Assembly (NCBI GenBank): GCA_021647205.1
Contig: JAKIVD010000011.1
Span: 1-64,000 of the forward strand
Origin: Bacteroidales bacterium
Lineage (GTDB): Bacteria > Bacteroidota > Bacteroidia > Bacteroidales > F082
DNA length: 64,000 nucleotides
Reading direction: 5' to 3'
Of the stretch, positions 10,897 through 14,155 are shown piece by piece; position 1 is the stretch's first letter; each line of letters begins with the position of its first letter. The position numbers and the translations under genes were made by a program. The notes under the pieces were generated by a model that was not told the DNA's origin, searched no databases, and saw only the letters and a program-made list of their open reading frames with translations.

Positions 10897-11649
10897 ATGG
10901 GTATTTATATCCCCGGAAAACGCCACCCTGTGAAAAAGTTACTTTTATTTATCGGCCTGCTTCAGTTTGCAAATGTATCTGCCCAACAGTACGGGCTTGT
11001 TCACAATCATTTACCGGCATTTTACGTCTTTGGCGTTGAGCAAATTACTTTTTCCATTGACTCGTCAAGTGCTTTTTCCGGTGATACGGTTTACTTCGCT
11101 TACACAAGCATCAGGGATACTTCAAACAATGGCGGTTGCGACAATTGTCTGGATGCCGGCGGTGGCCAGATTTTGGGAAGGGTGTTGCTTCAATCGGATG
11201 CCAAAACAAGTATCATTAATTTCCAGGGCGATTCTGTTCATTACTTTCGGCAAACCATGCCGGGGGAAAGTTATGTGTTTTATCAATATCCGAATGGGAT
11301 GCGTATTGAAGCCACACATTTTCAAAGCGTTTATGAAGAAGTGCTGGGTACGATGGATTCGGTAAAATACTTCAGCTTGCAGGCTTTCGGCCTTTCAGGT
11401 GATTCTGTCGACAATGATTTTAACGGGGAGGTTTTTCAATTGAGCCAGGCTCACGGATTGGTGTCAACATTCGACAATTACCTTTTTCCACTTTTGCCCT
11501 ACCGTTACGAACTGAGCGGTTTTTCCAATCCGGTAAGCGGTGTTTACGGCATCGGTTGGAAGGCTGTTTTTAACATTGATATTGGCGACGAGTTTCATAT
11601 CCGCGAACAGCAAGACCAGTGGTTTTATAATGAAGTTGTATTGCATTAG
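10897..11649 (+). pseudogene. Split T9SS cargo gene, N-terminal half
   Basis: About 250 codons. A signal peptide (VKKLLLFIGLLQFANVSAQ) begins at the GTG at 10930 or, with 11 extra residues, at the ATG at 10897. The mature text is an uncharacterised Bacteroidota secreted domain (FSGDTVYFAYTSIRD, CDNCLDAGGGQILGR, FNIDIGDEFHIRE). Reading stops at TAG 11647-11649, a few codons inside the AT-rich insertion. The matching second half, with the T9SS sorting domain, resumes in the same frame at 13313. As it stands it would make a truncated protein without a sorting signal. Confidence 0.75.
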
Positions 11650-11670
11650 AGAAAAGATTAGGATTTAATT

Positions 11671-12354
11671 ATGGAACAAGATAAAAAAATAGAAATTTTA
11701 AACAAACAAATACAAAAATTGGATGATCCTGATTTTGACCATCATAATTGGTATACTGAAACAGGAAATCGATTAAAACTAATTTTTGAAGATGCAGATG
11801 ATAGAATACATCAATTAAAATCCCCAATGCATAGACCTGAATATATGTTGAGCGGGATAGTTGTAGAAAAATTAATAAAAGATTGGAAACGATTATTGGA
11901 GGGATACAAGGAGGAGTTAGATTTGTTAGGTGAAGAAATGCCCGAAATTGAAACCATAGAAAATGGCAATTTTATTGACTCTGAAAGAATATTAGAGTTA
12001 ACAAAAATTACGTCTGATGAATTTGATTTTTCTAAATTAATTGCTCTGAGTCAAGAATTGAACTGGAATTATTCAAATGGAAACTATTTAACAGTTTCAA
12101 TGCTTAGCAGAGCAATAATTGATCATATTCCACCAATCTTTGGAATGGGAAAGTTTAATGAAGTGGCAAATAATTGTGGTGGCAAAAGTTTTAAAAAAAA
12201 TATGTTAAACTTGAACAACTCACTAAGAAATATTGCAGATAATTATTTGCATCAAACAATTAGAAATTCAGAAATTCTTCCGAATAAAACTCAGATTGAT
12301 TTTAAAAATGATTTTGATGTATTATTTGCAGAAATTATTAGAATCTTTAAATAA
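11671..12354 (+). CDS. Unknown protein of the AT-rich cassette (abortive-infection-like context)
   Basis: 227 aa, starting 27 bases inside the left cassette border. I do not recognise a named family. The N-terminal half is charged and helical (KIEILNKQIQKLDDPDFDHH). The C-terminal half has a conserved-looking core: LTVSMLSRAIIDHIPPIFG, FNEVANNCGGKSFKKNM, LRNIADNYLHQTIRNSE and TQIDFKNDFDVLFAEIIR. The R-x7-H arrangement in LRNIADNYLH is loosely reminiscent of HEPN-type helical bundles in defence proteins, but it is not a clean RX4-6H motif. Eight bases separate it from the nuclease gene, so the two are co-expressed. Codon use is strongly AT-biased, unlike the host genes. Confidence 0.65.
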   Translation: MEQDKKIEILNKQIQKLDDPDFDHHNWYTETGNRLKLIFEDADDRIHQLKSPMHRPEYMLSGIVVEKLIKDWKRLLEGYKEELDLLGEEMPEIETIENGNFIDSERILELTKITSDEFDFSKLIALSQELNWNYSNGNYLTVSMLSRAIIDHIPPIFGMGKFNEVANNCGGKSFKKNMLNLNNSLRNIADNYLHQTIRNSEILPNKTQIDFKNDFDVLFAEIIRIFK

Positions 12355-12362
12355 ATAGTGAG

Positions 12363-13226
12363 ATGAGAAAATTTGGAAAAACCATAAAGTTATTTCTTAT
12401 AGATGGCGAACCAAGTGGTCGAATGACTTGTGAATTATCGAATTGGACTGGTAAAGCCTATAAGATTCCAAGGATTCAAATAAAAGAATCTTATGAAAGA
12501 AAAGATTTGAAGAAAACAGGAATTTATTTGCTTTTTGGGAAAAATGATGAAGGTAAAAATCAGATATATATTGGAGAAGCAGAAACAATTATTGACCGAT
12601 TAAAACAACACTTATCACAAAAGGACTTTTGGAACGAAGTAATTCTATTTATAAGTAAAGATGAAAATTTAAATAAAGCACATGTGAAGTATTTAGAGAA
12701 TAGATTGTATGAATTAACAAAGGAGGTTAAACGGTATTCTATTGAAAATAATTCAACGCCTGCAAAATCATCAATTTCAGAATCTGAAATTGCAGAAATG
12801 GAAGAATTTATTGAAAATATAAAACTTTTAACTAATACATTAGGGCATAAAGTTTTTGAAAAACTTGTTAATGATTCAATTCAAAAGACTGATAGAACAG
12901 TATTTTTAATTAATGCAGCGAGAGGAGCAAAAGCAAAAGGTTTTCCGAGTTCAAGTGGTTTTATAGTTTTAAAAGAAAGTGAAATTGCAACATCAATAGT
13001 TACTTCAATTCATAAACCTTTAAAAAATATTAGAGAGAAACTTATTAATGAAAAGATAATTGTTCCAAAAGATGATAAATTAATTTTTGTTAGTGATTAT
13101 GAATTTTCAAGTCCTTCAACAGCAGCAGCAATTGTAATGGGCAGAAATGCAAATGGATTAACCGAATGGAAACTAAAAAATGGTAAAAATCTAAGAGAGT
13201 ACGAGACAAATGAGAAGAGTAATTAA
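12363..13226 (+). CDS. GIY-YIG nuclease with C-terminal DUF4357 domain
   Basis: 287 aa. The GIY-YIG domain lies near residues 53-115: TGIYLLFGKNDEGKNQIYIG supplies both signature strands (GIY and YIG), followed by EAETIIDRLKQH with the catalytic-type Arg, and later the Glu in KYLENRLYELT. The DUF4357 domain near residues 190-280 reads NAARGAKAKGFPSSSGFIVL and SPSTAAAIVMGRNANGLTEW. This pair is common in small nucleases of mobile and defence regions of Bacteroidota. The stop codon at 13224-13226 lies 6 bases before the attC-like inverted repeat. Second gene of the AT-rich cassette; the unknown partner gene ends 8 bases upstream. Confidence 0.88.
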   Translation: MRKFGKTIKLFLIDGEPSGRMTCELSNWTGKAYKIPRIQIKESYERKDLKKTGIYLLFGKNDEGKNQIYIGEAETIIDRLKQHLSQKDFWNEVILFISKDENLNKAHVKYLENRLYELTKEVKRYSIENNSTPAKSSISESEIAEMEEFIENIKLLTNTLGHKVFEKLVNDSIQKTDRTVFLINAARGAKAKGFPSSSGFIVLKESEIATSIVTSIHKPLKNIREKLINEKIIVPKDDKLIFVSDYEFSSPSTAAAIVMGRNANGLTEWKLKNGKNLREYETNEKSN

Positions 13227-13232
13227 AAAAAC

Positions 13233-13312
13233 GCAATACAACACGCAATATAAAAAAATTGGGCAGATAGTGCTAAATATGAATATTTTAACTATAAATA
13301 AACAACGTTGTA
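13233..13312 (+). repeat. attC-like site at the cassette 3' end
   Basis: Starts with GCAATACAAC (13233-13242) and ends with AACAACGTTGTA (13301-13312). The first box is the exact reverse complement of GTTGTATTGC at the left border (11635-11644) and pairs imperfectly with GTTGTAAATTG (13307-13317). ACGCAATA occurs twice (13231-13238, 13243-13250). The inner part contains a small hairpin, AAATAT-GA-ATATTT, near 13276. Length, position right after the last stop codon and terminal boxes suit an attC; inner L boxes are not clear. Confidence 0.5.
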
Positions 13313-14155
13313 AATTGAAATATTGGTGTTTCAAAATGCCCAACTTTTCATATTGCCACCGAAGACAGCACAACTTATAAAATAAGTTTTATTACAGATA
13401 AGATACGGACAGTTGTAGCGACAGAAGATTTTTTGGATTCTGTACGGTTTGTGTACCAGGAGTGCTGGCGAAAAACGGTGTACCGCCCGGACGGAATCGA
13501 CACAACTTACGTTAGCGATACCCTTATTGAAGAAATGGTAAGAAGAAATTCGGCGATTTTGTGGCAGGATTTGTCGTGGTTGGATTTGTATGCCGGGCAG
13601 TTCTACAGCAGTAATGAACAAGGGTATTCAGGTGTTCGTCAGATAAAAACCAACAGCTTCAATGGGCGGGGGCAAAAGTACATCAGGCGCAGCGAAATCG
13701 ATGGCGACAGTTGTTTGAATTATACAATTATTTGCCCCAACTGGCCCGAAGATTATTTTGTTGAAGGATGTGGCGGCCCCTTTTATGTTTATCCGGGATT
13801 TGGTCTGGAAAGCCGGCGCGAGCTGCGTTATTTTAAAAAGGGCGGTGAGCAATGGGGATTCCCTCTGGCCGACGATTGTAACGACCTGATCAGTAGTGCA
13901 GATGTGCATGCATCGCTTGATGACGGTCTGCTTGTTTACCCCAATCCGTTCACCCGACAATTGTTTGTAAGCAGCAAAACAGCAATGATTTCGGTGCTGC
14001 GTATTTTCGATGTTTCGGGAAACTTGCAAATTATCGAAAAGGTGGATGGCTACCATGCGCTTCTCAATACTTCCCTGTTGCCGGCAGGACTTTATCTTGT
14101 TGAAATACAAGGGTCGGATGGACAAATATTTCGACAGAAAATAATCAGGAAATAG
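13313..14155 (+). pseudogene. Split T9SS cargo gene, C-terminal half
   Basis: From 13319 the frame reads NIGVSKCPTFHIATEDSTTY and KISFITDKIRTVVATEDFLD, continuing the secreted domain begun at 10897, then ELRYFKKGGEQWGFPLADDC, and ends with a T9SS type A sorting domain (LLVYPNPFTRQLFVSS, LPAGLYLVEIQGSDG, FRQKIIRK). It lies in the same frame as the first half once the cassette is removed; a single TGA (13316-13318) remains at the junction. No signal peptide or suitable start of its own, so it is unlikely to be exported now. Confidence 0.75.

Follow-up and report, generated by a model that had tools for sequence, protein, structure and literature searches.

The window, a 64,000-nucleotide stretch from a Bacteroidales bacterium, contains a T9SS cargo gene that spans positions 10897-14155 and is split by a segment carrying two open reading frames and an attC-like recombination site. 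The features of the locus are the following.

10897..11635, + strand: 5' half of the interrupted T9SS cargo gene (part of ORF 10897-11649)
11635..11636, + strand: left crossover point G^TT, target ...TTTATAATGAAG / TTGTATTGC... (flank comparison; the R' extension TTGTATTGC is complementary to R'')
11636..13361, + strand: insert of 1726 bp, read as an integron-type gene cassette (joined flanks align gap-free with the intact homologue; G+C 28%)
11636..11644, + strand: R' arm TTGTATTGC at the cassette start, forming GTTGTATTGC with G13361 (sequence)
11671..12354, + strand: ORF1, 227 aa, without known family (ORF list, profile searches)
12363..13226, + strand: ORF2, 287 aa, GIY-YIG and DUF4357, candidate phage-defence family PDC-S14 (PADLOC, Pfam)
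13233..13361, - strand: attC-like recombination site; the bottom strand folds, and 11636-11644 completes it in the circular cassette (fold; covariance model)
13233..13242, + strand: R'' box GCAATACAAC (10-bp complement of R')
13245..13265, + strand: L'' box GCAATATAAAAAAATTGGGCA (pairs with L' in the fold; the stem covaries in the site family)
13337..13356, + strand: L' box TGCCCAACTTTTCATATTGC (fold; covarying stem in the site family)
13361..13362, + strand: right crossover point ...GCCACCG / AAGACAGC... (flank comparison)
13362..14155, + strand: 3' half of the interrupted T9SS cargo gene with the C-terminal sorting domain (Por_Secre_tail 8e-10; joined reading frame)

The original prediction had placed an integron-type cassette between two direct repeats of GTTGTA, at 11635-11640 and 13307-13312, and had pointed to a GC drop within the segment and to two ORFs lying inside a T9SS cargo gene. 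Both repeats and both ORFs are present as claimed and the drop in G+C was confirmed (28% in the cassette against 44-45% in the flanking gene halves); its right border at 13307 was wrong. A congener (G002) carries an intact homologue of 499 aa to which the 5' half is 54% identical, and ORF 10897-11649 ends prematurely at 11649 due to cassette sequence. Joining 11635 to 13362 gives a single open frame that aligns without gap with the congener gene (W-F-Y-N-E-E-D-S against W-A-Y-D-E-E-D-S) whereas a join at 13307 runs into frameshifts and stops, and the insert is therefore 11636-13361. The comparison with a related genome that the original prediction had called for thus favours a cassette, the congener gene being uninterrupted. 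The empty target site is GAAG^AAGACAGC, with no target duplication beyond the common G and no direct repeat of the target at the true borders. Since this single base is all that the two borders have in common, the event was a conservative recombination and not a transposition with target duplication. GTTGTA occurs 43 times on both strands of the 64 kb window, so that a direct repeat of these six bases is unremarkable; the copy at 13307 is internal to the recombination site and its match to the left one is coincidental.

Of the two cassette genes, ORF1 has homologues in 3 of the 396 related genomes, at 48-53% identity; one of these shares a 3 kb locus with a member of the same attC-like site family. 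ORF2 matched PDC-S14 in PADLOC (E=1.7e-116) and DUF4357 in Pfam (1.8e-23), with GIY-YIG slightly below its cut-off. The cargo is defence-like by family name alone, and we infer that it may serve in defence. Another genome (G004:C1:910119-910378; L029, L031) has a PDC-S14 remnant from which an internal part is deleted; its two pieces are 66-76% identical to the window ORF2, and no recognisable attC-like site lies beside it.

With the right end corrected, the order at the cassette end is R'', L'', loop, L' and then CCACCG. In the resulting hairpin R'' and R' pair over 10 bp and L'' and L' over about 19 bp, which places the inner L boxes that the original prediction had left unclear. Its statement that GCAATACAAC is exactly complementary to G plus TTGTATTGC was confirmed. 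The bottom strand of the circular form folds with a computed energy of -22.2 kcal/mol (z -4.1) into a 3'-terminal imperfect palindrome R''-L''-L'-R', as a single strand, with the crossover at G^TT and R' carried on the start of the cassette itself. The window site scored 126 bits with covariance model R2 and 92.9 bits with R3, so the proposed covariance search did find an attC-like fold. The GTTRRRY / RYYYAAC consensus is usual in attC sites but not strictly required; the window R', GTTGTAT, departs from it as had been cautioned. A genome-wide search with the pattern GCAATACAAC..GTTGTA gave one other match; this is no attC but a REP-type repeat located by a probable Y1 (RAYT-like) transposase gene. 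On contig C7 of the window's genome (L002 6620-7945) REP-type hairpins AACAACCTTCC...GGAAGAGTTGT lie on both sides of a Y1/RAYT-type transposase-like gene (L002 6846-7508, minus strand), the family of which was judged from its sequence alone.

Sites of this kind form a family in Bacteroidota. A covariance model built from the single window site (R1) gave about 70 matches in 39 of 149 related genomes, and one built from the window site and 22 others (R2) found sites, often in arrays, in at least 147 of the 395 Bacteroidota genomes sampled (37%), a lower bound as few candidates were scored per genome. Across 23 sites the stems showed 45 both-side changes against 9.8 in shuffles. Across 122 distinct sites there were 760 against 226.5, in an alignment that was fitted to the model, the 23-site test being the cleaner one. 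The signal collapses when the pairing partners are slid. Between the two stem segments, 104 of 123 sites keep a G opposite a T; AAC/GTT is kept in 140 of 150, with further bases variable. The loop of ~70 nt is conserved and the site length is uniform among the members used for the model (121-127 nt), and length variants from 57 to 200 nt also occur. No Rfam family scored above threshold for these sites, and R3 had no match to a class 1 integron cassette stretch or to the IntI region of genome G043; the family is thus distinct from at least these two. The window's own genome has 13 sites in total. Among them are further lone sites at C22:234069-234201, C12:132647-132782 and C23:5443-5576, two of which continue in non-GTT sequence (CCG^AGAAGC and CCG^TATAAC) and may be further stray cassettes; left borders were looked for at the other lone sites of this genome and not recovered.

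In integrons R' belongs to the cassette start and R'' to the cassette end, and complementarity is therefore expected between the two ends of one cassette and not across a site within an array. Among 72 adjacent pairs in arrays at least 5 of 6 bases were complementary across the cassette in 57 and across the site in 5 (shuffles: mean 3.9, maximum 11). At independent loci the corresponding counts were 37 of 41 and 4, with 2.6 in shuffles. The complementarity of the ends of one and the same cassette fits the prediction from recombination at G^TT. Many of the exceptions come from genomes G536 and G186 and are due to a constant palindrome directly after CGTT. This palindromic element (CAGCAAGATTCGCTTCGCTCATCTTGCTG in G536) stands at the crossover border of several sites (L130 in G536, L137 in G186), positioned as if it used the same junction as the cassettes.

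The original prediction had seen no integrase nearby. This is right for IntI, none scoring above the cut-off in a search of the window's whole genome, and it overlooks contig C41 of the same genome, which carries an array together with a recombinase of the cognate type. There a 384-aa tyrosine recombinase (C41:92749-93903) is followed by cassettes with at least three sites (L047), and the cargo includes a paralogue of the window ORF2, a type II methyltransferase and PDC-M19A/B. Good homologues of this recombinase number 28 in 36 genomes that bear arrays or sites. Of these, 22 lie within 20 kb of a site, against 1.3 expected, and all 22 are on the upstream side of the sites (18 co-oriented, 4 divergent). 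At 80 further named loci, picked by the recombinase protein alone, all sites (68/68) are downstream and co-oriented and the upstream flanks hold zero sites. These loci include Draconibacterium, Maribellus, Labilibaculum, Alkaliflexus, Arenibacter, Maribacter and others, some Bacteroides, and a few MAGs named as Neomarinimicrobiota or Tenebribacter. Where at least 1.5 kb of downstream sequence was available 24 of 40 loci have a site; at 26 others the contig ends within 500 nt past the integrase. Gut Bacteroides loci with the recombinase had no recognised site downstream, and close integrase homologues in gut Bacteroides, Phocaeicola and Parabacteroides (L206, L211, L216, L227, L230, L234, L242) are followed by 6 kb without a recognised site. 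Such gut loci may use a site of another kind, be empty integrons or serve some other role.

In most of 25 loci the first cassette begins 33-205 nt past the integrase stop and is preceded by a variable arm close to TATATAAACAAG^TT, at the position expected of an attI. A cassette array with an attI-type junction beside an integrase gene is found at these other loci and on C41, not in the window itself. A weight matrix gave no support for the window target as a near-copy of attI, the likeness being weak and equalled by 8% of sites ending in G.

The IntI-specific insertion of roughly 32 residues is missing in all 42 aligned array recombinases, which thus do not have the additional domain of IntI, and is present in a comparison set of IntI1, IntI3, a cyanobacterial IntI and the true IntI of G043. 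Five recombinases tested fell below the TIGR02249 cut-off with the insertion region unmatched (215 bits for an array recombinase against a cut-off of 265) and scored around the cut-off of NF040815, the NCBIfam family 'site-specific tyrosine recombinase/integron integrase'. The predicted structure of the recombinase (pLDDT 85, pTM 0.59) best matched XerA (4a8e, 5hxy) and IntI4 (2A3V). The model has an additional N-terminal alpha/beta domain without confident family, and many members have the extra domain. A HARP-like N-terminal domain was considered and rejected, with only sub-threshold Pfam matches (HARP, DUF5710) and recombinases and their relatives as the 50 best fold matches shown. In a tree four IntI form one clade (100/100) within or beside the array recombinases and apart from the own-genome XerC/D-like pair, with a weak root and outgroup sampling and two long Xer branches. 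The C41-type recombinase is related to IntI and archaeal XerA and is without the IntI-specific domain.

No IntI above the TIGR02249 cut-off was found in 30 of 37 genomes searched, many of them closed; a true IntI is present in seven, where it does not head these arrays. In G153 four sites (C1:1203834-1211215) lie beside a true IntI gene that is on the downstream side of the array, and this is the only IntI within 20 kb of a site among the listed sites. G043, of the same order, has a true IntI on C50 (L044 10267-11175, minus strand; TIGR02249 367 bits) with no site of the attC-like family near it.

Taken together, we read 11636-13361 as a single cassette, made up of ORF1, the PDC-S14 candidate and the attC-like site, of an integron-type system with the C41-type recombinase as its likely enzyme (probability about 0.88). 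The fold, the covariation in the family, the empty site and the complementarity of the cassette's own ends all uphold the proposal that an integron-type cassette landed at a secondary site. In the proposed route an integrase would excise the cassette as a circle via the bottom-strand hairpin of the attC-like site, with the cut at G^TT, and the circle would then insert at the secondary, non-att target GAAG^AAGACAGC, breaking the T9SS cargo gene. The likely enzyme would be a tyrosine recombinase of the type that heads the C41 array. Catalysis by this type, the acting strand and single-strand folding in the cell are putative parts of the route, set beside computed borders, a conserved hairpin, cassette-end complementarity, an attI-like position, co-localisation and the absence of the domain.

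Alternatively a canonical IntI, resident earlier or in another cell, could have moved the cassette, leaving the domain-less recombinase as a bystander. Cassettes can be mobilised in trans, and insertion by IntI1 at non-att sites (attG) is known according to PMC12901181, which cites Loot et al. 2024. An IntI could act in trans in the seven genomes that have one above the cut-off; this does not extend to the remaining 30 or to the genome of the window. Moreover IntI is not at array heads and the one near listed sites, in G153, is on the downstream side, whereas domain-less recombinases head arrays in 22 of 28 cases and accompany 68 of 68 sites, and we consider this alternative unlikely. Covariation alone cannot separate RNA from single-stranded DNA and many sites come directly after stop codons, as might be expected if the hairpins were an RNA element (such as an intergenic terminator or a regulatory RNA) and the arrays ordinary repeats. 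Against this, the complementarity is between opposite ends of a cassette, over a distance of about 0.5-2.5 kb, rather than within a site, the insertion borders are exact, the sites are linked to integrases and Rfam gave no family above threshold, which makes an RNA element highly improbable. Least credible of all is a transposon or MITE-like insertion for which the copies of GTTGTA at 11635 and 13307 would be a 6-bp target duplication. It is refuted by the 11635/13362 join that aligns with the intact homologue; a join at the repeats breaks the reading frame, the hexamer is frequent in the window, and neither a transposase nor terminal inverted repeats were found by eye at the GTTGTA borders.

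IntI is the defining component of integrons, which are considered rare in Bacteroidota. IntegronFinder identifies integrases by the IntI-specific domain (Messier and Roy 2001), as stated in the archaeal integron paper PMC9668308, and IntegronFinder 2 detected few integrons in Bacteroidetes, the one complete example in Bacteroidetes proper being that of Salinibacter ruber (PMC9024848). An earlier description of this integron-like lineage of Bacteroidota, which may be new, was not found in the literature searched, preprints and most subscription papers being outside the search. Our results make it probable that Bacteroidota and neighbouring phyla have a widespread second kind of complete integron, with attC-like and attI-like sites and an integrase without the IntI-specific domain. 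Given the placement of IntI in the tree, within this group of integrases or next to it, cassette recombination may predate the domain. If this is true, definitions and tools based on the domain detect at most integrase-less sites, and if the system is active, gut and marine bacteria would hold a large reservoir of overlooked mobile genes, candidate phage-defence genes included. The system also tests the need for the IntI-specific domain in recombining folded single-stranded sites, and the window offers a natural example of cassette insertion at a place that is not part of an integron.

The array recombinases have the tyrosine recombinase core in common with IntI integrases (TIGR02249; IntI1, IntI3, VchIntIA/IntI4 2A3V). 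Unlike these they are without the insertion, many have the N-terminal alpha/beta domain and most of their genes are co-oriented with the cassettes. Their best sequence and fold matches are archaeal XerA and NF040815; XerA resolves chromosome dimers at dif, whereas the enzyme here heads cassette arrays. With attC cassettes of integrons and with SALIN (single-attC, integrase-less) the window cassette shares a hairpin site at the 3' end after one or two genes. As in integron cassettes, R'' pairs with R' and L'' with L', the crossover is at G^TT and the cassette ends are complementary; as in attG insertions, the cassette sits at a non-att site. Unlike integron attC, the sites here have a conserved ~70-nt loop and a uniform length in the model members, a conserved central G/T mismatch takes the place of clearly assigned extrahelical bases, and the window R' reads GTTGTAT in place of GTTRRRY.
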